From Synechococcus sp. M16CYN (lineage in GTDB: Bacteria > Cyanobacteriota > Cyanobacteriia > PCC-6307 > Cyanobiaceae), in contig NZ_AP029048.1 of assembly GCF_040371545.1 (NCBI RefSeq), positions 1,860,001 to 1,924,000 of the forward strand: 64,000 nt of DNA, read 5' to 3'. This document shows, one piece after another, positions 1 to 23,171 of this stretch. How positions within the stretch are numbered: position 1 is the first letter of the stretch; each line of letters begins with the position of its first letter. The notes under the pieces were generated by a model that was not told where the DNA came from, did no database searches, and saw only the letters and a list, made by a program, of their open reading frames with translations. The translations under genes were made by a program, and so were the position numbers.

Positions 1-129
1 GGATTTATCTTAAAAACTAATTTTATTCAGGAAAAGATTTACTTTATGGATAAAATCTACCAATAAACTACCTTTGAGAACTTGGGAGTACCAAATATTC
101 ATGCAAACAGGCAAAAAATCAATAAATCC

Positions 130-3277: not shown

Positions 3278-3421
3278 ATGAACCGGTCGCCAAATATCGC
3301 CTTTTTTAGTGGTACCGTGATCATTGCGATTATGGTGATGATTGCCTTCGCCAACATGGCCATTGCTGGTGGTTACTCTACAAATTATAAATTTGCGGAA
3401 ACCACCCCTAAGGTTATTTAA
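3278..3421 (+). CDS. Single-span membrane or secreted mini-protein (47 aa)
   Basis: ATG to TAA frame of 47 codons. After a short polar start (MNRSPN), residues 8-32 form one hydrophobic segment ending in Ala-Ile-Ala-Gly-Gly, followed by a polar tail ending in TTPKVI. It could be a one-helix membrane protein like the many small photosystem and NDH subunits, or a signal peptide (cleavage after AIA) with a very short mature part. I compared it from memory with PsbI, PsbJ, PsbK, PsbM, PsbT, PsbX, PsaI, PsaJ, PsaM, PetL, PetM and PetN and it matches none of them. It is probably genuine, with unknown function. No obvious Shine-Dalgarno is seen. Confidence 0.55.
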   Translation: MNRSPNIAFFSGTVIIAIMVMIAFANMAIAGGYSTNYKFAETTPKVI

Positions 3422-5591: not shown

Positions 5592-6131
5592 CTATACAAA
5601 AAAATCTGAGATGCATATATCTTCTCTTTTTAGCAGGGCAAAGATAGTTCCAGCATTCCCACGACAGATTCGAAGCTGTCGATCCAATACAGTAATATCT
5701 AGCCATGCAGAAGAACGCTGTTTTATTTCACGCATCAGCGGGAGTCTTCTTTTACCAAGCAATTGAGATCCAATTACCCAACCCCCTCGAATGAATCGAA
5801 CCTCGACCCTCTTAACATTAATTATTTGCAGATTTGCCTGAACGCATATTCCACCAATTGATCCAAGCGGACCGCGAAGTCGTAGCAAATTGCATCCTCT
5901 TTTGTTAAAAGGATCAAGCACCTGCAAGTTATCAAGCCAAGGAGCTTGTTTCAGCCAAGGTTGCTTTGAACTACTCCAACGCAGCTCCCAAACTCCTTCT
6001 AGAAGCTCAGCATCTTTGGTCAAATCTGCAGGCTGCGCTATCTCAGCCGCGATAACCCGATTGCCAAGGCTCCTATCATCTGGTTGTCTCTGAAGGAGCT
6101 GAACCAGCTCACTATGGGCTTTATCCACCAT
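5592..6131 (-). CDS. PAP/fibrillin (plastid-lipid-associated) family protein
   Basis: A 179-aa soluble protein. Order of features: an N-terminal helical part (residues 1-45), the family's typical GVWELRWSSSKQPWLKQAPW signature (about 46-65), then a beta-rich domain with LRGPLGSIGGICVQA and RVEVRF strands, and a C-terminal VLDRQLRICRGNAGTIFALL block. Family knowledge: PAP/fibrillin proteins associate with thylakoids or plastoglobule-like lipid bodies and with photoprotection, and short versions are conserved in marine picocyanobacteria. Balanced composition and intact length indicate a live gene although it stands alone in AT-rich DNA with no operon partner. The exact ligand is unknown. Confidence 0.8.
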   Translation of the reverse strand: MVDKAHSELVQLLQRQPDDRSLGNRVIAAEIAQPADLTKDAELLEGVWELRWSSSKQPWLKQAPWLDNLQVLDPFNKRGCNLLRLRGPLGSIGGICVQANLQIINVKRVEVRFIRGGWVIGSQLLGKRRLPLMREIKQRSSAWLDITVLDRQLRICRGNAGTIFALLKREDICISDFFV

Positions 6132-8462
6132 TTTAGCCTCGGTCAGTCTGCTTGGAATATACTTGTCAGTGATGCTATCATTAGCAACCTATCAGTTCAC
6201 ATTATTAGTAGTATAAGCGAGATATTGAGTCTTGATGACAGTCACTCTGTGAGAACTCTTTGAGTTTGCATTACGCTTATAAGCGCAGCTCTAACACAAA
6301 AGTTGCCTGCCTAGCACATCTGCTGTCTTGACTATATTTAGGCAAAACTAATACTGAAGGCAATTCTCCCTGGTACACCTCTATAAGTAGTCTTTAATAC
6401 GTTTTCGTTTCTGATAATACATTCGGTAAAAGCTGAGATAGTAGACCACACCTTGGCTGCCGGTGCTGGATGGATACTTGTAGATATAAAAATTTCACGG
6501 TTGACATTAATTAACATATTTTAGCGGTTACCTCTAACGTTTAAATAAAATTGGTTAGGTTTATAATTTCTTGATAAGTAAGGACGAAATTCCTGCGGCA
6601 AATGCTATTCGATAGATTAGCAAAAAGGCGGTAAAAACATAGAAGCTTTTATTACTGGTTAGTCAGATTCCTGCTAAAGTCTTAGCTAGTAAAGTCAATT
6701 GCACTAGCAGAATCTAAGTCTAGTTCTCAACTTTTGAGATTCTTACGGGTCCTATTTATATATGGGATAAAGATAACAGCAAAGCTTGGCAATGACTAGA
6801 AAGCACTAGCTACTAAGGTTGAGCTGATAGACAAAGTCCTGAAGATCAAGTGCACCAACTGAAAGTAAAAAATCAGAGAAAGTAGCTTCTGAGCTTAAAT
6901 ATCAAAAATATAGCCAACAAATAGTCAAGCTACTTTACTTTTAATTAAAGTTTTTAGGGTTAGTTGTTTATTAATATTGCCAAGTGTAGTGTTACTTTTA
7001 TGACTCATTTTAATAGATTAAATTGCAAAAATTCTAGCAAAACTGGCAAAATGACACTATTTATAACTAAGAATACTTACCTATTTTTGAGACATTAATC
7101 GTATTAATCACAACAGATAAGCAAACATCGGTAGATTGCTATTAGTTTATAGCTATACAAAGATGAAAGCAAATTATTTGAGCATTAAGACCAGTACCAA
7201 TAGTAATCTACTTATAATATAAACTATTGATTATTAATCACCACTTACTAAGTCTTTTAGCAGTTAAAAACTAATTAGTTACAATCTTGTCATAACTGTA
7301 TAAATTACCATTTTTTCAGGTACTTAAAAATTTTAAGAGATATCAAAAATCATTAAAGATTAGAAATCTCCTAGAGAATTCCAAAAATAGTTTACAAAGC
7401 TACTTTATTGGTTCTTAAACCTAAAATATTTAAGCAGTCAAATTAATAAAACTTAATTAAGATTAAATAACAGCATAAATATTGTTACTGGTTAAATCAT
7501 TCCACTAACGCTATTTTTAATAGTAATTACCGGATAGTTTTTGAGTCTAATCCTACATAGAATCAAAATCTAATTGTTAATTTTGAGGAATTTTTATACC
7601 TAAAGATCTTGTTATTATTTTTTACTATATTATTAAACTAAATCAACTAAATCTAGAATCCTAAAATTAAGAAATTACGAAAAGAAATAAAATTGTTATT
7701 ACTAGATCTCACAAATTATTTCAACTAAGAAAAAATATTTGGGTTTAGCCAACTTTAAACTTTAAGATTACTTTAAATAAGTGTGCTATAAATATAATCT
7801 CTGTATCGCTAAATAGTAATTGTATTACAAATAAACAGATCGATTAAATTTTAATGAAACTTATTAACCTTTGAACAAATTCATATATTTCAGTCAATAA
7901 TAAAATTTTATTAAGATAAGGGATCTATTAGCCAGTGAAAACAAATAGATTAAGCAGTTAATAAGACTAGAGTACCTTACATTTGATATTGTTAAGTATT
8001 TTCAAAAAACTGCTAGAAGATTGTTCGATTGAAGCAGAATTAGGAAAATAAAATGTACCCAAAACAGGTAAACTATATATAGACGAAAGCAATAGTTATT
8101 AATATTATCTTTGATGATACAGGTTGCACGTCTATCATGGTAATCTAATTTATGTGGATCATTCAGTTATCTAAATAAAATAGATATCACAGATTTAATA
8201 GCCGATAATATTAACTATTATGTCTAGTACGTCAGAAAGATCATAATGCAATTAATAGTCATCAATATCTTTCTGCTTTTACGCACGTTTTGCTCTTCAA
8301 CTATGCGAATTGACAAAGAGAACCGAAGCTACTTACGAGTAAGAGAGAAGTTAGTCTTAAACTATGCGGCAACTAAACAATGCAAAGATTATTTCGACAA
8401 GGTAATTTTTCTTTGCTTTATACTCCTAAGAGGAGTAACTAAGAAGTCCTATATGATAGGTT
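6132..8462. other. AT-rich gene-poor tract
   Basis: About 2.3 kb with no supportable gene. A 75-aa frame at 8246-8473 on the plus strand overlaps the end of phhB and has no recognisable features. The short string aaaacatagaagctttt near 6634 recurs with one base fewer near 12053; whether this is a dispersed element or chance cannot be told by eye. Confidence 0.5.
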
Positions 8463-8789
8463 TTAAACGTTGATAACGTTTAGCTTGGCTGCTAATACTA
8501 CATCGGCTTGTGTTAGGCCATCTACTTTGTGGGTATAGATCAATACTTCAACATGTCCCCAGCCAAAAGAGAATTCAGCATGATGATTTTCGGCTTCACA
8601 GATTGCTCCCGCTGCATTTACCCAGTCAAGAGCAGTCTGAAAATCAATGAAGCGTAGGGAACGAGAAAGGTGATGATGAGCAATTACCTCCCAGCCTGGC
8701 AGTTGAGGGAGAAATGCTTTTAGCTCCGCTTCTGTGAGCTTTGGAGCACCTTCCCTACAGGGAATGCATGTTTGTTTGGCTAAATCCAT
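8463..8789 (-). CDS. phhB: 4a-hydroxytetrahydrobiopterin (pterin-4a-carbinolamine) dehydratase
   Basis: A 108-aa cytosolic protein, full length for the PCD/DCoH family. The N-terminal CIPCREGAPKLTEAEL block and LPGWEV are typical of the bacterial enzymes. The catalytic block EAENHHAEFSFGWGHVEVLI contains the paired histidines that act in dehydration of 4a-hydroxytetrahydropterin, and HKVDGLTQAD closes the active site. In cyanobacteria the enzyme recycles or handles pterins. The catalytic His pair argues that this is the canonical enzyme rather than the degenerate PCD-like Rubisco assembly factor (acRAF) of carboxysome clusters. An AAGAGG lies upstream of the ATG as a possible ribosome site. 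Confidence 0.9.
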   Translation of the reverse strand: MDLAKQTCIPCREGAPKLTEAELKAFLPQLPGWEVIAHHHLSRSLRFIDFQTALDWVNAAGAICEAENHHAEFSFGWGHVEVLIYTHKVDGLTQADVVLAAKLNVINV

Positions 8790-8904
8790 CGAGATTTCTT
8801 GCTACCTCTTGAAATACGTCTACGGTGTCCAGACTACCCCCAATCCCATCATTAGGTAACGACTGATTTTGGTAGGTGCTTAAAGACCTACTGGACTCTG
8901 AGTG
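8755..8904 (-). pseudogene. Possible 3' remnant of a gene upstream of phhB
   Basis: On the same strand as phhB and overlapping its start in another frame, 49 codons are open and read coherently (GGSLDTVDVFQEVARNLDG) to a stop inside phhB. There is no start codon and a TAA precedes the fragment. It could be the tail of a lost upstream gene that once was translationally coupled to phhB. The family is not recognised, and the fragment may also be chance. Confidence 0.25.
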
Positions 8905-9148
8905 TTAGATTTAGCAAGTTTTGCTGATTTCTCGGCACGATGTTACAAATAAGCTTTCTATAAGTCATAAAAATCTCAACACTAGATCAGTCAGACTAGG
9001 AACCAATATTAGAAATACTTAATCACCCTAATACTGCATACAGCAATCGACTGCATACGTCAAATAACAGATTATTCAAAAATTGGACTTATAAACTATA
9101 CAGTCAATGGCTTCTAGAGTAATGTCTATATCTAGAGAAGTCAAGCAG

Positions 9149-9200
9149 AGCCACTTATTTCTTTGAGCAGATTAGTATTTGCTCAAAGAAATAAGTGGCT
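9149..9200. repeat. Perfect 21-bp inverted repeat with 10-nt loop
   Basis: Arms at 9149-9169 and 9180-9200 are exact reverse complements (arm begins AGCCACTTATTTCTTTGAGC), separated by a 10-base loop (gattagtatt). No U-tract follows on either strand, so it is not a standard Rho-independent terminator. It lies in non-coding DNA between phhB and a weak frame at 9254-9484. A perfect 21-bp stem in an eroding AT-rich region suggests recent origin (small mobile element ends) or selection as an RNA structure. Confidence 0.85.
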
Positions 9201-9253
9201 CATCAAAAATTTAAGTCTACCTCGTCGAATGATTACAAGCATTCGCGAATAAA

Positions 9254-9484
9254 TTAAGCATCAGCGATGTAGATAAAATACTCACTGACCCGCTTTTCAG
9301 ACACCATCACAGTAATACCAATCCGCTGTTGGTTTCCAGGGCTAATTAATAAAGCTTTTAGTGGTTTTGCTTGTGTTATTCTGCTCGCATTAAAATAATG
9401 AAAAAACATGCAATGATGTATTGTCGGATAACAGCAATCTCTGTCTAACGATCGATATATGGTAGCGTTAAAAATAACTATCAC
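9254..9484 (-). CDS. Doubtful small frame (76 aa)
   Basis: An open frame of 76 codons. The C-terminal half (GNQQRIGITVMVSEKRVSEY) looks somewhat protein-like; the N-terminal half is rich in His, Cys and Tyr and looks like random sequence. No signal, membrane span or motif was found. It may be a relic of a longer gene whose 5' part has been lost. Reported only because it fills an otherwise empty stretch. Confidence 0.2.
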   Translation of the reverse strand: MIVIFNATIYRSLDRDCCYPTIHHCMFFHYFNASRITQAKPLKALLISPGNQQRIGITVMVSEKRVSEYFIYIADA

Positions 9485-10328
9485 TGCTCATTACTTTTTA
9501 AATATAAAAACTTTAGTCTAACTATTATTGTGATAGCTAAAAATTAAATTTGCATTTTAGATTACTCCAGAGCAATAGCTGGTGCAACTGGGATAATCAT
9601 AGTATTTCAATAGTGATCAAGCACTAATCATTTTCGGTTGCAGGGCCAAAAAATATCGAACATACTGACCAAAATAGGAAGTCAATATACTGACTAAATT
9701 TGATTAGCTAAATCTAAAAATAAAAAATAATCCTAGAAAAATAGTAGAATTAAAATGTAGTTAAACTCACTCAGAAAGAGGAGCTAAAGTGCATTAAATT
9801 AGATGCTCATTTAGAATAAAGAAATTAGAGAAATAGTCTTTGCTTAAAGTATTTACTTAAATATTTTATATAATGGAGAGAAGAATTACTTTTCATCAAC
9901 TATACTTTCAATAGTTAAGTTTTTTGACAATAAAAATTGAAGTGATTATCCTTTATAAGATAGGTAAAATTTTTATACTCTTAAAATCTATATAATATAT
10001 AAGAGTATATTTTAGATACTAAATATGGAGTATTCTCAAATCGCTGATAACAATTTAGAAAATTTTAATACTGTCAATGATAATATCGAGATTTTTAGCT
10101 TTTCTCATCAAAAAGTTTTGTATACCTTGCAACATAAACCGAGTTAAAAAGATGACTTAATAGAATAATTAATTTAGGTTAGTAAGTTTTAGCAAGTTTA
10201 AATAATATTTGATCTAAACTAGCTTGCAGCTAGCTAATCAAAAAACTGTTACTTTGACATAATAAAATATTAATCAGCTATTGACGCAAGCAAAATTTTA
10301 AGTAGTTTTAGTTATATAGTTTAAATTC
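9485..10328. other. AT-rich spacer upstream of the DUF2130 gene
   Basis: AT-rich, with one small frame at 10025-10147 (plus strand, 40 codons from ATG to TAA, polar, beginning MEYSQIADNN) that shares the low-GC composition of the next gene and may belong with it as a relic or leader. Nothing else is supportable. Confidence 0.35.
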
Positions 10329-11510
10329 ATGGAAGAAATTCAATGTCCACAATGTAACGCTATCTTTCAAGTTAATGAAAAAAGTTATGCGGATATTCTT
10401 AAACAAGTACGAGATAAAGAGTTTAAGCACGAGATAAAATCATTTAAAGACAGCTTAGAGCAAAAGCTTGAGGATACTGTAAGTAAGGTGAGAGCTGAAG
10501 AACAAAAATATGCTGCGGTTGAGTCTGTAGCAAAAGATAAAAAAATTGCAGAATATCAAGCAAGAATGGACAACTTTCAAGACAAAGTTAATTTAGCAAT
10601 TAATAAAGCCACGGAATTACTAAAAATTGAAAAGTCTGAGCTCAAACATGCTAATGAAAAGCTAATAATTCAACACAAAAATGAGATTATTAATTTGAAG
10701 AATAATCATAAAAATCAGATTAATTTTCTTGATGAAGAAATCATTAGAATTAAAGAGATGAAGTCACGTCAATCAACCAAAATGATTGGAGAATCATTAG
10801 AGGTTCATTGCAGAAATAGCTTAAATAAAATAAGAGCTTCATTATTTCCTAATGCTTATTTCGAAAAAGATAATAAAATATCTAGAACAAACAGCAAAGG
10901 CGATTACATTTTTAGAGATTATGATGAAGAAAATAATGAGATAATATCAATTATGTTTGAAATGAAAAATGAAGAAGATAACACAAGGATAAAAAAAAAG
11001 AATGATGATTTTCTCAAAGAATTAGATAAAGATAGACAAGAAAAAAATTGCGAGTTTGCTGTCCTTGTAACCCTACTAGAACCTGAAAATGATCTATATA
11101 ATCAAGGGATAGTTAATGTAAGCTATAAATATAGAAAAATGTATATCATCAGACCTCAATTTTTTATTGAAATTATTGTATTATTACGCGATGCAGCAAA
11201 AAATTTTGTTGGCCTCAAGAAAGAATTAGCTTTAGCTAAAGCAACAAATATTGATATTACAAATGTTGAAGAGCAACTTGAAATATTTAAGTCTTCGTTC
11301 ATGGTGACAAGTAAAAACTTTTCTAATAATTTTCAAATTGTCTTAGATGAAATAGACAAGTCAATTAATCGCTTAGAAAAAGCAAAATTAGCATTATTAA
11401 AAGCAGATAAAAATCTTACCGCCGCAAATAAAAAGGTAGATGCAATATCGATCAAAAAATTGATAAAAAATAGCCCGCTTCTTATGGAAAAATTTTTTGA
11501 AAATAATTAA
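10329..11510 (+). CDS. DUF2130 protein (RmuC-like, PD-(D/E)xK nuclease-like)
   Basis: A 393-aa protein. Residues 6-9 form a CPQC half zinc-ribbon. About 20-150 is a long, highly charged coiled coil. About 155-285 is the DUF2130 domain with GESLEVHCRNSL, then GDYIF (Asp about 192) and FEMK (Glu/Lys about 210-212), which fit the D...ExK arrangement of the PD-(D/E)xK fold. A second helical region ends the protein. The layout resembles RmuC, a recombination-limiting nuclease-like family, so a role in DNA processing is likely but unproven. The gene is much more AT-rich and Lys/Asn/Ile-rich than the core genes here, and it stands alone, both signs of transfer. Frame intact. Confidence 0.85.
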   Translation: MEEIQCPQCNAIFQVNEKSYADILKQVRDKEFKHEIKSFKDSLEQKLEDTVSKVRAEEQKYAAVESVAKDKKIAEYQARMDNFQDKVNLAINKATELLKIEKSELKHANEKLIIQHKNEIINLKNNHKNQINFLDEEIIRIKEMKSRQSTKMIGESLEVHCRNSLNKIRASLFPNAYFEKDNKISRTNSKGDYIFRDYDEENNEIISIMFEMKNEEDNTRIKKKNDDFLKELDKDRQEKNCEFAVLVTLLEPENDLYNQGIVNVSYKYRKMYIIRPQFFIEIIVLLRDAAKNFVGLKKELALAKATNIDITNVEEQLEIFKSSFMVTSKNFSNNFQIVLDEIDKSINRLEKAKLALLKADKNLTAANKKVDAISIKKLIKNSPLLMEKFFENN

Positions 11511-12332
11511 TAAAACTATTGATAACTAATAAGATAAACAATATGCTTAAAAAGCAGGAATTTAGCTATCTATAACGTTGAAGTACCCCATATTTCTTCT
11601 TAATAGGATAATTTGTTCTATATTAGTACGTGCGCTATTTAAAATTCGCTTAAAAGTAATACTGACTAGTTTGTACGTCATACACAGTCGAATATTTTTA
11701 AGACATAACTGACTAGTGCAGAGGTACACCTTGCAATTAGTATCTCATGCAGACGTAACGTTCTTCATAATACTTTTCAATTGATTAAAACCGCCCTTTG
11801 ATGCAAAAACGTATCTAGTAGTAGTTGACACAACAACCAGTAACTAAGTAACAGAATGTAACATTCTTTTAAGTGGCTACGTATTGTATGCCTCACATAC
11901 TAGCAAAGATAAATTTTTTATTGATTAGTTTACAGGAGTATATTTGGACCACCAACGCATTAAGTGATTAGCACGAGCAATAACCGCTTGCTATCCTTGT
12001 TTCCTTAGGATTTTTGTTTAGCGGTGATTATGGATAGTTATAAAAGTAGCCATGAAAACATAGAAGCTTTATTCAAAATATAATCAGTAGTCAATCGAAC
12101 AAATCTGAAAGAAATGGTATAAAATTAATCAAAATTTCACTAAATATATAAAGACTTATTATCAAATAAAACTAAAATAGTTTATTTAGATTTAATCATT
12201 GAAAACTAATTAGTTATTAAACTTAGGAATAACTATTGAATGTAAGCATTTCAATAAAAAGAATCTTTTTATATTTGCTTAATGGAATATTTGGCGTAAC
12301 CGGCCAGCCTTTTACCAACCGAATCTCTTTCG
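11511..12332. other. AT-rich spacer
   Basis: About 820 bases with no supportable gene or RNA. The short string actgactagt occurs twice (near 11662 and 11707). Confidence 0.5.
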
Positions 12333-12638
12333 ATGCTTACTCCTAAAACGAGACTAGTGCTTAGAGACATCCTGACTCGTTTGTCCAAAAACGAAAAGGT
12401 GACCTTAAAAGAAAGAATACTTCTGCAAAAATGGGCAGACAGGCACTCTACTGTTTGGCACTGGCTCCGCAGAGCTAGATCAATTCAAGTGAGTGGTCAT
12501 CTTGGACAAGATTCTGTTAACGGATTCATGCAACAAATGAATCTCCCAGGCCAATCACCGGAAGAACACTTTAACGGCTCACGAGATGATTTAGGAGATT
12601 GGTTTCAAGGGTCACCGCAATGGGTACGACGCAGTTGA
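12333..12638 (+). CDS. Conserved-looking hypothetical protein (101 aa)
   Basis: ATG to TGA, 101 residues, with balanced base composition, contrasting sharply with its surroundings. The N-terminal half is basic and helical (LSKNEKVTLKERILLQKWADR), then WHWLRRARS; the C-terminal half is polar and Gly/Gln-rich and ends in GDWFQGSPQWVRRS. It has no membrane segment or signal peptide. The style (Trp-rich tail, helical head) is that of a small soluble picocyanobacterial protein, but I cannot name a family. It is monocistronic. Confidence 0.7.
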   Translation: MLTPKTRLVLRDILTRLSKNEKVTLKERILLQKWADRHSTVWHWLRRARSIQVSGHLGQDSVNGFMQQMNLPGQSPEEHFNGSRDDLGDWFQGSPQWVRRS

Positions 12639-13661
12639 GGGCTAAATATCTGTCTAAATTTACTTGATAGATAGAATCATTAGATTGGTGATTTAAATAG
12701 TGCAAACTATTACTCAGCATTTTTATTTAATCAGTACTTGTTTTGAATATCATAGTTCAGCAGCAATAATACAGCTCTATCATTTAGACATTTTAGTTCA
12801 ATGATTAAATTAGCTATCATCTGACGTCTAATTCCCGCAATATCAAGAAACAAGCGTTTGATTCCTAAATAAAATCTCAACTAAGAGAATTATAAGCACA
12901 TTCTTAATACAATTAAAATCTATTAATTATTATAAAAAGCTTGCGAATGTATGTAATGAGTCAATATATATTGAAAGACACTTTGTCCAAAATGTTTTCA
13001 ATATTTAATAGTTTTACACGATAAGTAAAAGTTGTCGATTGTATAATTGTAAATATCTAGTGTTAAACAATTTTATTCACATAAATATTGATTAAATAAT
13101 TCAGATTAACTATAAAGCTGCGTAATCTTTTAAAGAAAAATGTGTATTAAAAATATACTAAAAATCAAATTTTTATATCCTTAATTGCTTAATGGTTATC
13201 TTCTCTGTAAATTACCTCTTAGCTCTAGAGGACAGAGATATCCTAAAACTTCTGGGTGCTATCGAAAAACAATGGGGCGAAAGGTTATCGCAGATATTAT
13301 GTCTGGAACCAAAAAGACGGCGTGGAGAAAAAGTAAGTTTAGCAGAAATTGCTATTGTGAAAACAAAGTACATATCGTAGCTGAAGCTGCAACTATCTAA
13401 ATGCTCTTTGAAAGACTTTAGTCCCCATGACCGACACCATCCTATTTGTCGATAATCCTAACATCTACCCACAAATCGTTCACATTATCAAAAAACTGAA
13501 AGATAGCCCCTGGAAACTCAGATGTAACTACCGGTAGACTAGCAAAAATAGAGGTGGAGCCATAATGTAGCTGCCAAAGCTTTCATCAAGTTCTAGCAAA
13601 TATCTATAAGAAAGTTAAGACTTTCCGACAAAAAATTAAATCATAAGCTATCAATAACTAG
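12639..13661. other. AT-rich spacer with weak frames
   Basis: About 1 kb. Around 13192-13380 (plus strand) a 62-aa frame contains a coherent stretch (ALEDRDILKLLGAIEKQWGE), and 13427-13537 holds another short frame starting MTDTILFVDNP. They may be pieces of one broken gene but share no recognised family. The rest is AT-rich filler. Confidence 0.35.
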
Positions 13662-13892
13662 TCAAATAATAGTTAAAATGAACCCAATCATAAACAATGG
13701 TAAAATAAATATCTTATTTGCACTCCCATCAGAATAAATTCCATATAGGCATACAAGATTATTGCTACTGTAAGGCTGAATGCAATTCCTTGTCTTAGTA
13801 GAATCGATAGCAATAAACAAAACGCCGACAATAGCAGCAGTAAAAATTACGGTGAAGAATCTCATCTGTTTGGTGTGAGTAGAGAACGTCAT
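13662..13892 (-). CDS. Small two-span membrane protein (76 aa)
   Basis: Residues about 10-28 (MRFFTVIFTAAIVGVLFIAI) and 60-76 (ILPLFMIGFILTII) are hydrophobic, with a short loop containing two cysteines (NCIQ and LVCLY) between them. If both ends face the cytosol, the Cys pair would lie outside and could form a disulfide. No family was recognised. Translation may start at Met10, just before the first span. The gene is isolated; moderate confidence that it is real. Confidence 0.4.
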   Translation of the reverse strand: MTFSTHTKQMRFFTVIFTAAIVGVLFIAIDSTKTRNCIQPYSSNNLVCLYGIYSDGSANKIFILPLFMIGFILTII

Positions 13893-13982
13893 CTGTTCGA
13901 TATATTTGCTATTGTTTCGTTAAAATAAGTCAAAACTACATCACTCATTCAGGAAATCTTTTAATAATTTCTTATCCCCGTT

Positions 13983-14342
13983 TTAGTCAATCTGTAAGGA
14001 CCTTATCGGCTTCAACATTCCAAAATACTGGTGCATCAGTATTCCGGATTTTTTAGTGGAATTAGGCCAAAGCCGTAGCTCACTATTAATCACTTTCAGC
14101 ACCTCATCTTTTCGCACCATTTACATAACTGCAACCTCAATCAGAGCGCAAAAACTCACAAGACTAATAGCTCGCTTGATACTTACCTTCACCATCTATG
14201 GCCACGCTTTTGCCACCACTCTATCAATCTCCAATATCTCACCATCATTATTACATAACGCCAAACTAAAATCCGCTTGCATAATACTTGCCGCCAGTCG
14301 CACCGTATCGCCAATTTTTAAAACTTCTTTGGGAAACTCCAT
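13983..14342 (-). pseudogene. Broken gene with two in-frame stops
   Basis: One frame of 120 codons from an ATG to a final TAA reads as coherent protein throughout, interrupted only by a TAG and a TAA. The best-kept part begins MEFPKEVLKIGDTVRLAAS and continues with an acidic segment including NNDGEILEIDRVV. After the stops it continues KDEVLKVINSELRLWP. The frame length and balanced composition argue that the stops are recent. The ATG overlaps the stop of the preceding broken gene (TAATG), so the two were a translationally coupled pair. Family unknown. Confidence 0.5.
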
Positions 14343-15728: not shown

Positions 15729-15998
15729 TTATGCACGAGGCGACAGAGTGTCGATTACTATCTCAGCGTGATCAGCCAAGGCGAAGAGAAGAGCTGCCAC
15801 GAGGATTACAAATAACCAGCCCCGCGGCAAATCACCTGCGTAGCAGGACTGTGCCTTGGTTGGTATAGGTGAACGTGAAACCCTGCTGCTTTGTCCCACT
15901 TGCGGCAGAGATTGCCATATCATCAATGATTTGCCGTTTGAGATGCCCTTTACATAGGGGCTAAGGAAAAACAAAGACTTCCGTACCGCCGCAGCCAA
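15729..15998 (-). CDS. Doubtful frame with C-terminal membrane span (89 aa)
   Basis: The last 35 residues contain a clean hydrophobic segment (GWLFVILVAALLFALA) followed by an acidic tail, and a terminator-like hairpin lies just downstream, which supports a genuine 3' end. The first 50 residues look less natural, so the gene may be frameshifted upstream. No family recognised. Confidence 0.3.
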   Translation of the reverse strand: MAAAVRKSLFFLSPYVKGISNGKSLMIWQSLPQVGQSSRVSRSPIPTKAQSCYAGDLPRGWLFVILVAALLFALADHAEIVIDTLSPRA

Positions 15999-16222
15999 GT
16001 CTTAAAAAGAAGTCGAGCGTTGCTGTCAACATGCGAACAGTGCGGCGCTTCGAGCGTTTGCTAAATAGATTCATTTAGCCTCCCTCATCGAAAGCCTCGA
16101 TGCCTTTCCAACTAATGACTTAATTTCGGCAGAGCTTTTGTGGGCCTGTCATTAAAGACAGCAGCCTTTGCTGACGTACTCGCAATTAGTCACAACAATA
16201 CTCAGGGGTCATGATCCCGTGA

Positions 16223-16717
16223 CCTGGGATCACTACGGCCCTCCGGAACTATAAACCCAAGCTGGGCAACCGAATCGCCGAGAAAACCTTTGGAGCCAAC
16301 TACAAGTCTTACTTGAACGTCGCCCTGCTGCATCTACAGGGCCGCAAACCAGCCCAGACATGCAAGGAAAGGCTAACTGAGCGCATCTTCGGCTGCTGTA
16401 GGGTCAATCAGAAGCCAGGCGTGAAACACGGCGAAGAACTCAAGCTGTGGATCGAAACGCCGAAATTACGCTCGGAGTGCTGCTTGGCCCCGAAGAAGTT
16501 CCTGGAATACGCAGTCGCCAGGCACCGATCAGCCTTAAAGGACTACCTGGGGCTACGCAATGTAGATGGCAAGCACAGGAAGAAGACCGTCCTCACCGAT
16601 GACTAAGTGATGGAGCTGATTCAGCTACTTCCGGATGCCTGAGGCAACGTCGTAGCGATCAGTGATGCAGCACGAGAAGCTCTTCGTTTATGTCACTCAA
16701 GCCTTCTCTACTTCTAG
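16223..16717 (+). pseudogene. Probable tyrosine-recombinase (integrase) relic
   Basis: About 165 codons in one frame with a TAA and a TGA inside. The first part (KLGNRIAEKTFGANYKSYL, then basic Lys/Arg-rich segments) suits an arm/core-binding region. The string KKTVLTDD-stop-VMELIQLLPDA closely resembles the LTDEEV..LI segment that begins the catalytic domain of phage-type integrases, with TAA where a Glu codon (GAA) would be expected. The Arg-His-Arg-Tyr catalytic part is missing beyond 16717. The family assignment rests on this one signature, so it is an inference. It lies 5 kb from ssrA, a classic integration target. Confidence 0.4.
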
Positions 16718-16751
16718 AAATCGATTAACGGCAAGGAAAGCTCTGGGCGCC

Positions 16752-16784
16752 GACGTAGCAGAAAGAGATGGACTGAGCTCCCGA
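16752..16784 (+). repeat. Diverged copy of the 17430-17462 coding segment
   Basis: Thirty-three bases here match 17430-17462 in 26 positions and in the same codon phase (DVAERDGLSSR versus DVTERDKLNSQ). The copy lies in a frame that soon turns into low-complexity sequence (a run of A then G), so it looks like the broken duplicate of the small gene at 17433. Confidence 0.5.
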
Positions 16785-16876
16785 ACCGGGCCGAGAGAAA
16801 AAAGGGGGAGGGGGGGAACTACTCATTTACATGTCGTTACAAAGCGCTTAACCTTTCTTCATCTCGATCATTTGCC

Positions 16877-17068
16877 ATGACCTCCTCAGCATCAAGCGAC
16901 AACTGGTATCAAAAGGATGCAGCAGCTCAGATCCGTACTGAGCGAAACCAAAAAGCTGAACTCTTAAACGGCCGCTTAGCGATGCTTGGCTTCGTTATTG
17001 GTCTGCTCACAGAGGCAATTACTGGCCACGGAATCTTGAGCCAGGTCACCTTCGGCATTTTTGGCTGA
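16877..17068 (+). CDS. hli: High-light-inducible protein (Hli, one-helix chlorophyll-binding)
   Basis: A 63-aa protein with a polar N-terminus and the diagnostic chlorophyll-binding helix ELLNGRLAMLGFVIGLLTEA (residues about 28-47), in which Glu and Asn/Arg ligate chlorophyll. A second short hydrophobic end follows. Family knowledge: Hlips sit in thylakoids with photosystem II assembly intermediates and CP47/ChlG, and quench or carry chlorophyll under stress. It is first in a tight group of small plus-strand genes (17074, 17199, 17433), which may be co-transcribed. Confidence 0.92.
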   Translation: MTSSASSDNWYQKDAAAQIRTERNQKAELLNGRLAMLGFVIGLLTEAITGHGILSQVTFGIFG

Positions 17069-17073
17069 AACTG

Positions 17074-17196
17074 ATGATTGATTACTCAACCGCTATTTGG
17101 GGCCTAGTTGCAATCACTGCACTGCTTTCGGCTGCTGTGATCTATATCTTGGCTCAGCCCACTGATTTGCCCATAATCAAAAATCGAGGTCATTAA
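17074..17196 (+). CDS. Small single-span membrane protein (40 aa)
   Basis: Starts 5 bases after the Hli stop. Residues 6-30 (STAIWGLVAITALLSAAVIY) are a single hydrophobic helix; the tail (PTDLPIIKNRGH) is polar. Size, position and topology suggest a thylakoid mini-protein working with the Hli protein, but no named family was recognised. It ends 2 bases before the next gene, consistent with an operon. Confidence 0.6.
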   Translation: MIDYSTAIWGLVAITALLSAAVIYILAQPTDLPIIKNRGH

Positions 17197-17198
17197 GG

Positions 17199-17399
17199 AT
17201 GTCGATCGACAACCGCTGTAGAGAGCAACAACGTGTTGCCGACCAAATGTTCACGGATTTCAAGTACACAAAACCTGGCTCTAAAGAGCAGATCCGAGCT
17301 TTAAACACTCTGAACTTCCTTGTTGGCATGTGGGTAGACTTCCTTTCGCAAGAAGAGAAGAGAATGCATTCTGCACTCACGCTTGAGTCCAGCACCTGA
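17199..17399 (+). CDS. Small hypothetical protein (66 aa) in the Hli group
   Basis: ATG starts 2 bases after the preceding stop. A soluble protein with a Cys/Arg/Gln-rich start (MSIDNRCREQQRVADQ) and a helical second half (ALNTLNFLVGMWVDFLSQEE). Family unknown. The tight spacing to the 40-aa gene and the Hli gene suggests one transcript. Confidence 0.55.
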   Translation: MSIDNRCREQQRVADQMFTDFKYTKPGSKEQIRALNTLNFLVGMWVDFLSQEEKRMHSALTLESST

Positions 17400-17432
17400 A
17401 ACAGAAACTGAAGCTATTTTATTGACTTTGAC

Positions 17433-17549
17433 GTGACAGAAAGAGATAAGCTGAACTCCCAAAGCGAGTTGACGCAGCCATATTTAAGCCAACGATGGTT
17501 GCGTGAAGAAGTGGCTGCTGCGTTTACTGCTCTCGTCAGCGACTTTTAA
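17433..17549 (+). CDS. Small hypothetical protein (38 aa), GTG start
   Basis: GTG to TAA frame of 38 codons beginning MTERDKLNSQSELTQPYLSQ and ending in a helix with RWLREEVAAAFTAL. A broken near-copy of its 5' part occurs at 16752-16784. It follows the Hli group by 33 bases. The coherent sequence and the duplication favour a real gene; function unknown. Confidence 0.45.
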   Translation: MTERDKLNSQSELTQPYLSQRWLREEVAAAFTALVSDF

Positions 17550-17621
17550 TACCCAGCACAGGCGCATCACGGTCCGTAAGATAGAGTAACGAAATAGAAT
17601 CAAGTCGGTTTGCTCTGGTGA

Positions 17622-18151
17622 TCAATGGAGGGATCCGCGGACTTCTCCATCGCCATCATCATTGAGATCTATGCTTTCGAGCCAAAAGCCGATGAGCATG
17701 GCTCCATGAGCCAATGCCTTTAGATTAGCATTCGCGGGTGTTGCTTGAGGCGGATAAACCGTTCCACTTCAAGTTTCGGACACTTCTGTGCGTCGCATTA
17801 GCGAAGGTACCTCGGATATGCGAACACCTAGCCAGACCTTACCAATAGCTGGTCCACATTATGTTGGTGGTTGAGCAGCTTTGCCACGGTTCCCCGTAGC
17901 GATTGTTGTATGCACTCTCACAGTCACCTCAGACCCAACGGGCGTTAGGTGCTTGAGGAGTGCCATAGATGCTACTCCCCAAGGGCGTTAGAAGGTTTCT
18001 GGTGAATCAATACAAGCGAAGCGAACTGCGATGCTTCTGCTTCTTTCAGAAACTGGAACCGTGTCGCCATCGCCAAATAAAAACCATCGTTGCAGCATTG
18101 GCGCTAGTCACAAAGCAAATCGCGAAAACCGGTATTAGGAAAGGCTTTCAT
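17622..18151 (-). pseudogene. Secreted thermonuclease-like (SNase) gene, decayed, with Excalibur-like tail
   Basis: Joining frames on the minus strand gives a signal-peptide-like start (MKAF, then a hydrophobic run ending in SANAA), then FGDGDTVPVSERSRSI and RFACIDSPET, which are the first Ca-binding and active-site strands of staphylococcal-nuclease-like proteins. RPWGV, LTPVGSEVTVRVH and NRGKAA follow, matching the next conserved strands. The 3' end encodes SIDLNDDGDGEV followed by GSLH, reminiscent of the Excalibur Ca-binding tail that often follows secreted nucleases. Frameshifts near the start plus a TAA after PETF and further stops make it non-functional. Its ATG overlaps the stop of the 63-aa frame upstream. 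Confidence 0.65.
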
Positions 18152-18339
18152 CGCATCCTTATTCCTGTTCTTTCCGCAGAGTATTTTGTAGGGAACACTG
18201 TCCCTGTCGCGATCAAACCTTGAGTTGCCTGCTCTGTACGATCTAACGGCTTCCTCACAAAAGCGGAAGATTCTGAAGTCTGAGCGGAGACGGATGGTGC
18301 GATCAAGACCGTCGCTGCCAATAGGACTGCAAAGCGCAT
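18148..18339 (-). CDS. Short secreted protein or fragment (63 aa)
   Basis: Clear signal peptide: MRFAVLLAATVLIAPSVSA followed by Gln-Thr, with likely cleavage after Ser-Ala (AxA-like). The mature part is only about 43 residues, polar, ending RTGIRMR. The stop overlaps the ATG of the nuclease relic (ATGA), so the two were co-translated. It may be a complete small secreted protein or the 5' half of a gene truncated by a frameshift. No known domain. Confidence 0.4.
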   Translation of the reverse strand: MRFAVLLAATVLIAPSVSAQTSESSAFVRKPLDRTEQATQGLIATGTVFPTKYSAERTGIRMR

Positions 18340-18414
18340 CTCCTGTTGCTTGGTTCAACCACTGTTGTGGTCACTTCAACTGATAGACATCACAAGGAGG
18401 CTGGGCTCACAAAG

Positions 18415-18543
18415 GTGGCTGAAGTCATGGGAGTCCTCCTGTTACTGGTGATGGCAATGACCTGTCTGGTGCCTAAAAGAGTCGTCCGGAAGGCTGACTA
18501 CCGCGCCCACAGACTCCCAAGGCTCCAAACTGACCTGAATTAG
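18415..18543 (+). CDS. Doubtful small membrane protein (42 aa)
   Basis: A GTG start (an upstream ATG at 18346 is also in frame) with an AAGGAGG about 17 bases before it. One hydrophobic run (VMGVLLLLVMAMTCLV) is followed by a basic tail. It may be real or a relic; no family. Confidence 0.25.
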   Translation: MAEVMGVLLLLVMAMTCLVPKRVVRKADYRAHRLPRLQTDLN

Positions 18544-18552
18544 GAATAATAA

Positions 18553-18771
18553 ATGAGAAGAGACTACGCCGCCATATTTCAAAAGAGACTTCAGAAAAAA
18601 CTCCCTTGGTTAAAGGCGATGAAGCAGTACAAGGGAATGAAAGACAAGACATTATTCATTTACACAATTCTCACAAGGCCAAATAATCTAGTTAACAAAG
18701 CTAGGTCTGGCTGTTCCGAATGCACACAATTGAGCAAAAAATTATCTAATGTTCAAGAAATACTTAAGTAG
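18553..18771 (+). CDS. Hypothetical protein (72 aa), possibly truncated by TAG
   Basis: Basic helical protein starting MRRDYAAIFQKRLQKKLPW. After the TAG at 18769-18771 the same frame continues coherently (RPDRILRGNLIKTEAFMDKE) for some 35 codons, so the original gene was probably about 110 residues or longer and the TAG is a recent lesion. The far end would overlap the minus-strand frame at 18875-19081. Family not recognised. Confidence 0.35.
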   Translation: MRRDYAAIFQKRLQKKLPWLKAMKQYKGMKDKTLFIYTILTRPNNLVNKARSGCSECTQLSKKLSNVQEILK

Positions 18772-18874
18772 CTCAAAGAAAATAGACCCGACCGAATTCT
18801 TAGAGGCAATCTCATCAAAACAGAGGCTTTCATGGATAAAGAAATTGGAGCTGAAAAGCTAACAACGGCGAAAA

Positions 18875-19081
18875 TCAATCCTTATCAATTGATTTCCTCC
18901 TTGCTTCCTCAGGTGAATCGGCAGAGTCACCATAGTAAGACTGAGCAGTGGCTGCAAAGTTTATAAACTTGAATAACCTGGCTATAAATGTGAATCTTTC
19001 AAGAAAGCAAGGGTAGCTTAGACTTTTCTTAGGCCCTCGTCCAGTCCATTCTTTGAAATAGAAAGCACCATATACCATCAA
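18875..19081 (-). CDS. Hypothetical protein (68 aa)
   Basis: A frame with a coherent end: FINFAATAQSYYGDSADSPE followed by a basic tail; the N-terminal half is aromatic and basic (FYFKEWTGRGPKKSLSYP). It is downstream of, and on the same strand as, the 19153 and CoiA-like genes and may belong to that decaying operon. No known motif. Confidence 0.35.
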   Translation of the reverse strand: MMVYGAFYFKEWTGRGPKKSLSYPCFLERFTFIARLFKFINFAATAQSYYGDSADSPEEARRKSIDKD

Positions 19082-19152
19082 CTTATTTTCTATTTAAAGG
19101 ATTTGCTCGGAATATTCTTCGTAAATTCCATACAAATCCAACCAAGCCCACA

Positions 19153-19491
19153 TCAGCCTCGCTGAGGTAAAAGTAGCAGATGAAAATGGCTAGTATCCTC
19201 GAGATAATTGATGAATAAATCAATAGGTATTCCATATTTATTGTCTTCGAAGATGCCTAAATCCGCATGCTCTCTCCACGCCCTAGATAGCTCGTTACTC
19301 AGATAAAGCTCGATTCCAGCTGCTATAGCAGCTCCCACAAGAGGTTCAGCACCTTTTTGCAAGAGGTGCGTTATGGCCTCCGCTGCAAAAATCTCGTCAC
19401 CATCTCGAAAGGAAAACTTGAGCCCCTTTAATTGTTTGACTAGTTCGGTTTTAATTCCAGTTTTTTCAAAGGTCGTGCCCTCCAATTTCAT
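19153..19491 (-). CDS. Hypothetical protein (112 aa)
   Basis: A soluble protein with a coherent sequence: a Lys-rich start (MKLEGTTFEKTGIKTELVKQ), an Ala/Gly-rich helical centre (EPLVGAAIAAGIELYLSNEL) and an acidic C-terminal half. The ATG overlaps the stop of the preceding frame by four bases (ATGA), indicating translational coupling, or that both frames once formed one protein now split by a frameshift. Family not recognised. It lies among decayed DNA-uptake and recombination genes, which may hint at its original context. Confidence 0.45.
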   Translation of the reverse strand: MKLEGTTFEKTGIKTELVKQLKGLKFSFRDGDEIFAAEAITHLLQKGAEPLVGAAIAAGIELYLSNELSRAWREHADLGIFEDNKYGIPIDLFINYLEDTSHFHLLLLPQRG

Positions 19492-19964
19492 GCTTTCTTG
19501 TATGGAGCTTCTGTATCTATCAGGGCCTCGATCTTGATAACTTTTCTATTTTGAGTCAACCAGTACTCAGCAGTTTCGCCAAGAGCCTTGGAGCCTTTAT
19601 TTTGCTTTCCATTCTTGAGAGTTGCTGTCTCCGACGGTATCAAGTAAGGAAAGGTATAGATAGTCTTCGAACCTCTACTGAAAATATCCAACTCTATATT
19701 TCGACTGTTTAACTCATATTTGCCGCACTTCGTCTAGTGTGTATTTTCCGACTCTTTTTATGCACACATCGTTTTTCCTTGCCCTGGATTTTGAGTGAGC
19801 AAAATGCAATGCTCTTTTTTTCCTCTTCTTAAGAACACATTGGCCCTGCACTCAGAGCAAACGATTAAGTTCTTACCGATTAACCATCCGCCATCGCTAT
19901 CCATCTGCAAGAATTTCTCCACGCTCATTGTTTCAAGCTTTACGAGGGAGAATGCGTAGTCCAT
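19488..19964 (-). pseudogene. CoiA-like (competence/zinc-ribbon) gene, frameshifted
   Basis: The first frame (from 19964) runs to CSECRANVFLRRGKK. There a run of seven A's shifts the frame: with one more A the sequence continues RALHFAHSKSRARKND, giving the CxxC...HFAH pattern of CoiA-like competence proteins and related nuclease-associated zinc modules. The shifted frame ends near 19714. A third frame then carries coherent protein (TIYTFPYLIPSETATLKNG, then LGETAEYWLTQNRKVIKIEA) to 19488. At least two frameshifts are therefore present unless the A-run is a sequencing error. The CoiA assignment rests on the zinc/HFAH motif. Confidence 0.55.
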
Positions 19965-20043
19965 CAGTTGATTTTTCTGCGATGAGCGATACTGCCTACG
20001 CTGAAAGAGACAAAAGATCTAGCTAAGTAAACCTTCATCACCA

Positions 20044-21483
20044 CTATTTTCCGCTCTGAATTTCTCTAACAATACTATCGATGGTATCGTTCAGCCTTGC
20101 TTCTCCGTTTTGCCCAGCCAGTTCCGAAAAGCGTCTCCCTTGAGGAATCAGTCTATTCTACGCTGATCCAACTGCTTCATTGAAACTCTTATTTAGGCGA
20201 ACCAAATTGCTACCGACGGCATTGAACTTGTCGACGAACGTCAGAAACCACTTGTGCAGCTCAACTGCATTGTTTTGGATCTCCTCGATATTGGTAGCGA
20301 TCTCTGCTTGTTGAATGGACATCGCCAGTCCCTTCAGGATTGCTAGCAAGCTTGTTGGGAACGTAAGGATGATGTTCTTGCTGAAGGCGTGCTCCAAGAG
20401 GTCTGGATTACGCTCAAGTGCCATCGAGAGCGCACCCTCCGTAGTAATAAAACAGCACTACACCGTCGACTACCTGCCCCAGGGAGCTGAGCTTGCTTGC
20501 GTAATCCTTCTTGCTCAGCAGGTCGATATGGCTGCGCACCTTCCGCAGGTGCTCCTTCAGGGCTGCCTCGCGTTGTGCATCATCGCTTGCTTGCAGTGCA
20601 TCCAGATAGCTCTCAATCGGTGCCCTGGAGTCCACGATCAATCGACGTGAACCAGGGGTAGTGATGACGCAGTTAGGTCGGTAGGTAGCCTCTTCTGTCT
20701 TAACGTGAACCTGTTCATCAAAATCGCAGTAGCTGATTAGCCCAACAAACTCCAAGATCCTTCGCAGGTTAACCTCACCCCAGCGCCCCTTGACGCTTGG
20801 GGATCTAAGAGCTGATGTCAGTTGTTGAGCAACTCTCTGAACGTCTTCGCTGCGTTACCGCAGATCCATCGTGGTCTGAGCGAGCGCTCCTAGTTTTTCG
20901 ACCGACTCCTTTTGCAGAACCTGCATCTGCTGGCGTAGTTGCTCCATCTGTTTGGCAAACGGCTTGCTGACGGTCTCTTTCGTTGACTTGAGGAGAGCAT
21001 CCCTTGAGCCATCGAGTATTTGTCCGCTGAGGGAGCGGAACTGGCTCAACAGGTCAGACCTGGTTTGCTCTAAGAATTGGGTCCGACTCTCTTGAGAGCG
21101 AAGCTTCTCAGCGATTTCAGCTGTTTTCTTACTGAGTGCTTCTTTCTCAGAGCGAACCTGCTCGAATGCTGCGGTAGTGCTGGCCTGAGAGGTCTTCAGA
21201 TCATCTCTCTCCTGCGTTACGGCACGAGTTGCATACGACTTACAGCCGCGACTTCCTTGGCTTCTTGAAGCTGGAGCTGTTGTTGCTTGATCTTAGCGTT
21301 CTGGGCTTCCAGTTGAAGGCTGAACTTTCCCAGTCCCTCGTTGGCTTGTCCCAGACGCTCCTCAAGGATTCCCAGGTCCCCAGTATTTCCAGCTGATCTG
21401 GACCTGCCAAATACCTTGCTCAGGATCAAGTCGACGATTACGCCGGTCAAAACCCCGGTGATGAAGAGGAGGACGGCTGACAA
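20044..21483 (-). pseudogene. rmuC: rmuC-like DNA recombination gene, decayed
   Basis: Pieces in order along the minus strand rebuild a full-length RmuC: an N-terminal membrane span (LLFITGVLTGVIVDLILSKV), coiled coil, KGRWGEVNLRRILEFVGL, the core RPNCVITTPGSRRLIVDSRA with SYLDAL and HIDLLSKKDY, then DGVVLF. A frameshift near 20420 breaks the usual FlPgE segment, after which ERNPDLLEHAFSKNIILTFP and the C-terminal RLIPQGRRFSEL follow. Lesions: a frameshift near 21230, TAA at about 20856, the shift near 20420 and TAG at 20158. RmuC family members limit inversions at short repeats and carry a nuclease-like fold. Loss is recent, since the core is easily recognised. Confidence 0.85.
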
Positions 21484-21710
21484 AACCGAACCATCAGCTC
21501 TGTTTGTCCTAACTCAAGTGTCAGAGCAGTTCTGATGCAGCTTCATAAGACGATCACTCCCTCAGCCTTCACTCGCTGCAATAAGAAAGTGTGACCCCAG
21601 ATGAATCATTAATGCCGGGAACAACCTGATTCGGGTCACAGTTACACCCTGGGTCACAGGACCAAAACCTCGGGAAGATCGCATCCAAGACTCTGGGATT
21701 TGCGATAGTT

Positions 21711-21730
21711 AAGGGGGCCTTCCAGCCCCC
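21711..21730 (-). terminator. Hairpin terminator after ssrA
   Basis: On the minus strand GGGGGC-TGGAAG-GCCCCC followed by a weak TTAACT. It lies directly downstream of the tmRNA coding piece and is the natural end of that transcript, although the U-tract is poor. Confidence 0.55.
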
Positions 21731-21734
21731 ATGA

Positions 21735-22012
21735 GTCATTTGGGTGATAAGGCTGACCTCACCCCATCTCCCTTAAAAGGGTCAAGCAGCAACAGGGGCT
21801 GTTTGACGGGAGAAACGTACGATGTTGTTCGCAGTTACGAGATTTGCTCTAACCGAGCAGGTTTCAGTCACTCTCCTTATGCCCCGTCGAAACCATTGCA
21901 GCCCCGAGAGGAGTAATGGAGCTGAGCGGAATCGAACCGCTGTCCGAAGCACTGGTGTGAATCACCTAGTTCGAAAAAACCGAACTCCGATATTCTGACA
22001 GTATTGCTCCCC
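21735..22012 (-). ncRNA. ssrA: Two-piece (circularly permuted) tmRNA
   Basis: The minus strand carries the permuted order found in alpha-cyanobacteria: first the acceptor piece (about 22012-21917) with the T-arm GGTTCGATTCC and 3' end CAGCTCCA, then a short intervening loop, then the coding piece starting GGGGCTGCAATGG at 21905. The resume codon GCG and the tag frame lie at 21832-21782 and encode ANNIVRFSRQTAPVAA followed by TGA, the expected picocyanobacterial tag. The acceptor and GGGGCTG ends pair as in alanine tRNA. tmRNA with SmpB rescues stalled ribosomes and tags nascent chains for proteolysis. Exact mature ends are estimates. The 5' end lies only some 16 bases from the divergent methyltransferase start. 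Confidence 0.95.
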
Positions 22013-22028
22013 AATAGCACAACAGATC

Positions 22029-23171
22029 GTGGGTCGTGAGAACCGACTATCGGCAGTGGCGGTATTTCCTCAGGGACTGGAAATTGCCGGCTGTGACGAG
22101 CTATCCGATTTGGGCGCCCACGACGTGCGTCCACTACGACGGGCCGTCGGCTTTCAAGCCGATATGGCCTGTCTCTATCGCCTCCATCTCCAAGCCCGTC
22201 TACCATTTCGCTTGCTCAGGGAAATGGCCCGTTTTCGCTGCCAAGGGCGCAACAGCCTTTACGACGGCGTCCGTCGAGCCCTTGACTGGGAGCGCTGGCT
22301 GCATCCCTCTATGAGTTTTCGCGTGGATGTTACCGGATCTGCGCCTGGGCTAAATCACAGCCATTATTCCGCTCTGCAAGTGAAAAATGCTCTAGTGGAT
22401 CAACAACGAGAGATTTGGGGTAGACGCTCATCGATTGACCTAAAAACCCCTGATCTTTCATTGCATCTTCATCTCAACGGTGGAACAGCGGTGCTCAGCC
22501 TAGATGGCAGTAGAGGAAGTTTGCATCGCCGAGGCTATCGAGTCGCCATGGGGACGGCTCCCTTAAAGGAAAACCTGGCCGCAGGGCTAATTCGGCTCAC
22601 TGGCTGGGATGCCTCGGTTCCTCTTGTGGACCCTTGTTGCGGATCTGGAGCACTCTTAATCGAAGCTGCCCTCATGGCACTCCAACAGGCTCCTGGTCTT
22701 GGTCATATCTTCAGCTTGAAAAGCTGGGCTGATTTTCAGCCTGAGCTCTGGCAACAAGAAAGTACTAAAGCGCAGCGACAACGTCGTAGAAATTTCAAGT
22801 TGCCACCCTTGCTTGGCATCGAAAAGGATCCAGCGGTAGCCGATCAAGCACGAAGCAATATAGCTGCAGCAGGATTACAAAAGATAATTGAAATCCGAGA
22901 TGGATCTTTTACAGCGCAGGACTTGCCGGAGGAACCTGGAGTTTTGGTTTGCAATCCTCCTTATGGTAAACGTATCGGTAATCAGAAAGATCTAGACCAT
23001 CTTTATACGACTTTAGGCATATTCGCTCGCGAAAAAGCTGTAGGTTGGCAACTATGGCTACTCAGCGGTAATCCAAAACTGACAAACAGCCTTCACATGA
23101 AAACATCAAGGCGCATTCCTATAAGTAACGGAGGTGTCGACTGCCGCTGGTTACAGTACAGCATTTATTAG
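22029..23171 (+). CDS. THUMP-domain class I SAM-dependent RNA methyltransferase (RlmL-like)
   Basis: A 380-aa protein: an N-terminal THUMP-type RNA-binding part (about 1-145, with QARLPFRLLREMARF), a linker with RRGYRVAMGTAPLKENLAAGL (cut here to its core GTAPLKENLAAGLI), then the methyltransferase with motif I DPCCGSGALLIEAALMA and catalytic motif IV NPPYGKRIG. This pattern is that of the 23S rRNA N2-guanine methyltransferases (RlmL N-terminal half, G2445). GTG at 22029 is the longest start; GTG at 22056 is an alternative that leaves more room for the ssrA promoter. Only about 16 bases separate it from the divergent tmRNA, so the promoters must overlap the genes. Confidence 0.88.
   Translation: MGRENRLSAVAVFPQGLEIAGCDELSDLGAHDVRPLRRAVGFQADMACLYRLHLQARLPFRLLREMARFRCQGRNSLYDGVRRALDWERWLHPSMSFRVDVTGSAPGLNHSHYSALQVKNALVDQQREIWGRRSSIDLKTPDLSLHLHLNGGTAVLSLDGSRGSLHRRGYRVAMGTAPLKENLAAGLIRLTGWDASVPLVDPCCGSGALLIEAALMALQQAPGLGHIFSLKSWADFQPELWQQESTKAQRQRRRNFKLPPLLGIEKDPAVADQARSNIAAAGLQKIIEIRDGSFTAQDLPEEPGVLVCNPPYGKRIGNQKDLDHLYTTLGIFAREKAVGWQLWLLSGNPKLTNSLHMKTSRRIPISNGGVDCRWLQYSIY

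Follow-up and report, generated by a model that had tools for sequence, protein, structure and literature searches.

The 64,000-nucleotide stretch analyzed here (the window; all positions refer to it unless stated otherwise) spans positions 1860001 to 1924000 of the chromosome contig of Synechococcus sp. M16CYN. The genome comprises two contigs of 1,940,073 bp and 17,326 bp, which fits the 1.94-Mb chromosome and 17-kb plasmid of CregCyn, the Citharistes regius cyanobiont (PMC11150560), and the source was taken to be this dinoflagellate-dwelling cyanobiont. The window contains an intact ssrA, the permuted transfer-messenger RNA (tmRNA) gene (21714-22001, minus strand; RF01851, 308.9 bits; tmRNA* by ARAGORN). 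To its left lies a series of broken genes, very probably what decay has left of a small integrative island whose insertion point was the 3′ end of this gene. Leftward from ssrA, the order is an element arm, a broken rmuC, a CoiA-like gene, a gene for an SNase nuclease with an Excalibur tail, an hli module, and the relics of two integrases, referred to here as type B and type A. Coding density (open reading frames [ORFs] of at least 100 amino acids, 2-kb bins) is 0 to 0.2 in nearly every bin left of ssrA and mostly 0.8 to 1.0 across 16 kb to the right. The core flank on the right is an intact gene for an RlmL-like methyltransferase (22029-23171, plus strand).

The ssrA neighborhood was compared across 20 loci of the genus (comparison genomes carry G numbers, and the loci extracted from them carry L numbers). 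The rlmL-like gene flanks ssrA on one side in all 20 loci, with 68 to 82% identity, and the opposite side is variable. Ten of these loci have a XerC/D-like integrase (type A) whose start falls at -25 to +41 bases relative to the 3′ terminus of ssrA. Four genomes (G002, G021, G024, and G015) hold a copy of the last 40 to 50 bases of ssrA at a distance of 6 to 9 kb from the gene; in three of them, a type-B integrase of 400 to 435 codons begins immediately inward of the copy and is oriented toward ssrA. The type-A integrase of G015 is displaced outward and lies directly beyond the copy. A further ssrA-end copy stands beside an integrase about 28 kb from ssrA in G021 and G025; with the copy at about 9 kb, G021 has two in series, and a separate integrase accompanies each. 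These loci mark ssrA as a hot spot of integration for this genus and show that type-B islands insert at the same point, push the type-A integrase outward, and leave ssrA intact with its last 40 to 50 bases copied beside the type-B integrase. The attachment (att) site is the non-tRNA-like 3′ end of ssrA (about 21714-21760 in the window, minus strand), copies of which flank the islands of the relatives. In the G004 locus (L033, 3077-10099), three consecutive type-A integrases, whole or fragmentary, lie next to ssrA, and an SNase gene is interspersed among them.

The type-B relic (16158-16660, plus strand) covers residues ~82 to 265 of a tyrosine integrase. It is 64% identical to the integrase of G021 (L108) over 157 residues; the G021 and G025 enzymes are its closest relatives (64 to 65%), and a tree grouped it with them (L079 and L080) at 100/100. 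The whole catalytic domain is gone, as the family columns R274, K302, R381, H404, and Y413 all lie beyond the relic. Intact type-B relatives keep the catalytic set (R in 34/34, K in 33/34, R in 34/34, H in 34/34, and Y in 33/34); their profile matches the XerC-like structure 4a8e at 6.8e-6, and distant members match a PHROG integrase. The R-K-(H/Y)xxR-H-Y set, together with this similarity to known members, marks the intact relatives as predicted tyrosine recombinases. Pfam, NCBIfam, and PHROGs gave no match for the relic or for the type-B relatives closest to it; two ssrA-type members were compared with PHROGs and NCBIfam and one with Pfam. Copies of the ssrA 3′ end were counted over the 30 top-ranking matches of the G015 integrase: a copy lies just outside the N terminus, within a few hundred bases, in all 17 top integrases and in 1 of the next 13. 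Because these 17 nearest integrases all carry the ssrA-end copy and the relic clusters at 100/100 with two of them, the relic, judged by this kinship, probably belongs to an integrase clade that targets ssrA.

The sequence-only reading, an earlier note made from the DNA letters without database searches, had drawn an integrase relic at 16223-16717. The relic is real, but its extent differs: the segment 16643-16717 (plus strand) is the tail of a gene for a small secreted protein (82% identity over 17 amino acids; E values of 2e-5 and 4e-5), which is also present in the ssrA islands of G021 and G025. Neither the island nor the integrase had a DNA or protein match in a phage collection, and a prophage reading was dropped because structural genes are lacking.

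The side of the island next to ssrA is preserved. An arm of 129 bases (21585-21713) abuts ssrA and shares about 75% identity with its counterpart in the intact island of G015 (L049, 11195-11318); among the fetched loci, it had no match besides G015. It holds three GGGTCAC sites, at 21591 (inverted), 21633, and 21651, which are probable integrase arm-binding sites. A three-site GGGTCAC cluster occurred in 2 overlapping tiles of the 16,259 tiles of fetched sequence, both in the G015 arm, and GGGTCAC sites are also found beside the G015 integrase. By this arrangement, the 3′ end of ssrA is the predicted boundary of the element. The G021 and G025 elements (L107, L108, and L123) instead carry CGGGATAAA repeats at both arms, likely an arm-site code unlike the GGGTCAC of G015. 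A GGGTCA-like stretch at 16206 was rejected as a distal arm, as its frame shows integrase coding sequence.

At the far side, a second integrase relic, XerC/D-like and of type A (15775-16119, minus strand; residues 227 to 361), is 44 to 62% identical to its relatives, with E values down to 6e-28. It is likely the older integrase, displaced beyond the far end of the element as in G015. A junction at 16126-16157 fuses the two integrase relics: the type-A relic breaks off at residue ~227 (position 16119), and the type-B relic begins with residue ~82 (position about 16158). About 40 bases now separate these endpoints; in the intact G015 island, the distance between the same points is about 1.2 kb and includes the att copy. 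Neither a duplicated ssrA end at the distal border nor a catalytic integrase is present in the window, and since the distal att copy is missing, the locus was classed as an island remnant and not as an intact member.

Next to the arm lies the rmuC relic (20047-21483, minus strand), which is spread over three frames with one internal TAA and one internal TAG and still matches PF02646 at 4.6e-47 and 2.9e-22. Its two main segments are 74 to 77% identical to the intact G003 protein (tblastn). The gene is sporadic, occurring in 31 of 400 family genomes, and its tree places the window copy in a 100/100 clade with G004, G296, G144, and G057, apart from most of the genus. In G296, which belongs to a different genus, the same-clade rmuC lies 2.4 kb from ssrA, behind a type-A integrase. 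The neighbors of rmuC are genes matching the HmaA, HmaB, and HmaC models in G003 and G007 and type I restriction genes in G008, G016, G273, and G131. The RmuC-domain protein ShdA acts in phage defense as part of the Pseudomonas Shield system (PMC10270631), and by analogy the rmuC gene of the island may have had a defense role.

The CoiA-like gene (19566-19964, minus strand) is interrupted by a frameshift and two stops, and its segments are 88% and 73% identical to a G144 protein. The intact G144 homolog (L102, 8376-9026; 216 amino acids) passes the PF25164 CoiA_N model with 36.3 bits against a cutoff of 26.3; it has no match to the CoiA nuclease family and holds the N-terminal CoiA domain only. 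The gene was found in 2 of 300 family genomes, this one included, and the G144 copy lies 37 bp from a type-B-like integrase. A query across all species returned a single distant, partial match in a planctomycete bin. The third relic (minus strand, from about 17640 to 18074 or 18160) encoded a secreted SNase nuclease with an Excalibur Ca-binding tail and consists of three segments with internal stops. It aligns over both domains with an SNase-Excalibur protein of G004 (L033, 7149-7859) at an E value of 1.9e-16; this intact homolog carries PF00565 (8.4e-19) followed by PF05901 (2.9e-5). The Ca-binding tail of the relic is still legible (DLNDDGDGE). SNase genes are also part of the islands at ssrA in G004 and G153; in G266, one lies 235 bp from rmuC. 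An SNase gene, a TPR protein gene, rmuC, and a type-B-like integrase gene stand in a row in G038 (L066, 3991-8906), adjoined by a partial tRNA 3′ end. Each of the cargo genes travels with integrases, separately from the others; the three were never found together in the neighborhoods examined.

The intact hli module (16877-17396, plus strand) comprises open frames for a high-light-inducible protein (PF00504), a 40-amino-acid ORF, and a 66-amino-acid ORF and is unrelated to DNA processing. Like the type-A relic, it had gone unmentioned in the sequence-only reading. G016 has the module in identical order (78, 66, and 86% identity), and the closest copies are in G016 to G018 and not in the nearest relatives, G001 and G003. 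The third gene of the module occurs in 30 of the 34 genomes of the genus, and the only full copy in this genome sits inside the wreck, which may be why the module was retained. The plasmid (L144, 17 kb) has kinds of genes that recur in the ssrA island, namely, two SNase copies, two HLI-like matches, and one Phage_integrase protein. It was rejected as the source of the island, given that its integrase is of a different type, it has no ssrA end, and it has no DNA match to the window.

The decayed stretch extends left to about 1856.8 kb in genome position, where intact capsule and sulfotransferase genes start; the same chromosome content lies beyond the distal att site of G025. Within it, about 14 kb (window positions 1-14000) have a G+C content of 26 to 34%, compared to 50% for the genome, and hold few open frames. 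Intact genes there encode a pterin-4a-carbinolamine dehydratase (8463-8789) and a PAP/fibrillin protein (5592-6131). An intact DUF2130 gene (10329-11510) stands in surroundings of 28% G+C and is about 50% identical to its genus homologs, which are present in nearly all genus genomes; the window copy represents either fast evolution or replacement. A second stretch of low coding density (0.2 to 0.6) and a G+C content of 0.35 to 0.45 lies right of ssrA at 50001-56000.

The layout of the window is that of G015, namely, ssrA, an arm with repeats resembling integrase sites, cargo, a type-B integrase, and a type-A integrase. In the proposed course of events, a type-B integrase would have catalyzed recombination between the chromosomal site and an ssrA-end copy serving as attP, so that both ssrA and its terminator hairpin were re-formed. 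Once the cyanobacterium lived in its dinoflagellate host, selection on the cargo (rmuC, the CoiA-like gene, and the SNase gene) would have ceased, and these genes would have been broken by stops and frameshifts; the hli module alone stayed open. One deletion may have taken the type-A N terminus, the distal att copy, and the type-B N terminus; an element that had lost its att copy and its integrase N termini in this way could therefore no longer excise. The sequence-only reading had likewise seen a decayed island beside ssrA, with broken minus-strand genes for an SNase with a Ca-binding tail, a CoiA-like protein, and RmuC. The kinship of the integrase, the preserved proximal arm, and the intact islands with att duplications at the same site in relatives bear out the former, and the latter genes are all recognizable, with stops and frameshifts.

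Two points weigh against this account. No ssrA-end copy is left in the window: an ungapped scan and short-word BLAST for a degenerate att site found nothing above chance. The duplicated end that the sequence-only reading expected is thus absent, which would be explained by removal of the distal copy in the deletion at about 16126-16157. In addition, the arm resembles that of the G015 element, whereas the integrase relic is closest to those of G021 and G025, whose arms carry the other repeat. Because of this mismatch, two elements may have been involved, and a composite of serial insertions at ssrA, joining a G015-like arm whose integrase was lost with a G021/G025-like integrase relic, is a real, if doubtful, possibility. 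The difference between the two arm-repeat types, the serial insertions of G021, and the presence of relics of two integrase types in the window all speak for such a composite; however, a single type-B relic remains, the layout is that of one insertion as in G015, and arm sites may diverge between related integrases.

A further explanation takes the SNase, CoiA-like, and rmuC genes for ancient core genes of the ssrA neighborhood and the integrase relics for incidental. It could draw on the same-clade rmuC at ssrA in the different genus of G296, but rmuC stands at ssrA in none of the 20 genus loci, rmuC and the CoiA-like gene are both rare in the family, and the closest rmuC genes are spread across genera contrary to the species tree. 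We regard this explanation as very unlikely, and an ancestral SNase-CoiA-rmuC order without an integrase, which the sequence-only reading had named as the finding that would speak against an island, was not found. Assembly errors have a conceivable source in the whole-genome amplification from which the genome was obtained, with nanopore and Illumina reads (PMC11150560). Against them stand neighboring genes of up to 1,197 codons that are intact, the large losses, the many stops, divergence down to 44 to 64% identity, and the presence of all sequences in two other host cells (PMC11150560), and such errors are a highly improbable cause of the broken genes. It is also unlikely that the three proteins (SNase, CoiA-like, and RmuC) worked together as a single system, be it for DNA uptake or against DNA. 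The SNase genes near rmuC in G266 and G038 and the role of RmuC proteins in Pseudomonas phage defense would fit a joint function, but the trio is absent from every neighborhood examined, the partners of rmuC vary (type I restriction genes, Hma-like genes, or none), and no competence genes are nearby. The theme of DNA uptake proposed in the sequence-only reading fares no better, considering the frequent defense systems beside rmuC, the restriction of the CoiA-like protein to its N-terminal domain, and the intact hli module. The island probably carried a loose assortment of accessory genes for DNA processing or defense and not an uptake system.

In the description of CregCyn, the islands of the symbiont were reported without transposition genes, the plasmid was suggested as their source, and their timing was left open (PMC11150560). 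A fossil integrase at the chromosomal ssrA indicates that site-specific integration into the symbiont chromosome happened and was followed by decay and that the ancestors of the symbiont took up such islands on the chromosome. On balance, we favor the view that picocyanobacteria hold an unrecognized family of tyrosine integrases whose specialized target is the permuted tmRNA gene at its non-tRNA-like 3′ end and which drives the genus-wide hot spot; the CregCyn relic would then show that this family acted on a symbiont chromosome and that islands need not be plasmid derived. The rule that all 17 top integrases carry an ssrA-end copy predicts the target of this poorly annotated clade and is useful for locating island borders in picocyanobacteria.

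Several known systems resemble parts of the island. The rmuC product shares with Shield (PMC10270631) the RmuC domain, a predicted N-terminal membrane segment, and, in relatives, defense neighborhoods; unlike Shield, which is reported from Pseudomonas only, the window gene is a relic without identified Shield partner genes. The islands of marine Synechococcus (PMC2441476) are similarly hypervariable, lie near RNA genes and integrases, and carry accessory cargo, but that paper does not mention tmRNA, and the island of the window is decayed and resides in a symbiont. Tycheposons and other tRNA-targeted picocyanobacterial elements are alike by description in that they bear integrases and lie at RNA genes, and a tRNA-like 3′ end borders the G038 relative that carries SNase and rmuC; the target here is, in contrast, ssrA. 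In 2003, under the title Traffic at the tmRNA gene, Williams reportedly described how elements integrate into the permuted ssrA of cyanobacteria at its non-tRNA-like 3′ end. Genomic islands at the tmRNA gene are known (PMC11915505), and the present element agrees with ssrA islands in the target gene, the end used, the tyrosine integrase, and the gene-end duplication in intact relatives. It differs in that the copy is lost, the element is dead, and the integrase clade is hardly recognized by current family libraries. A decayed ssrA island is thus known already as a type; what is new is a sharply defined, poorly cataloged integrase clade and the fossil of a chromosomal island in a symbiont.

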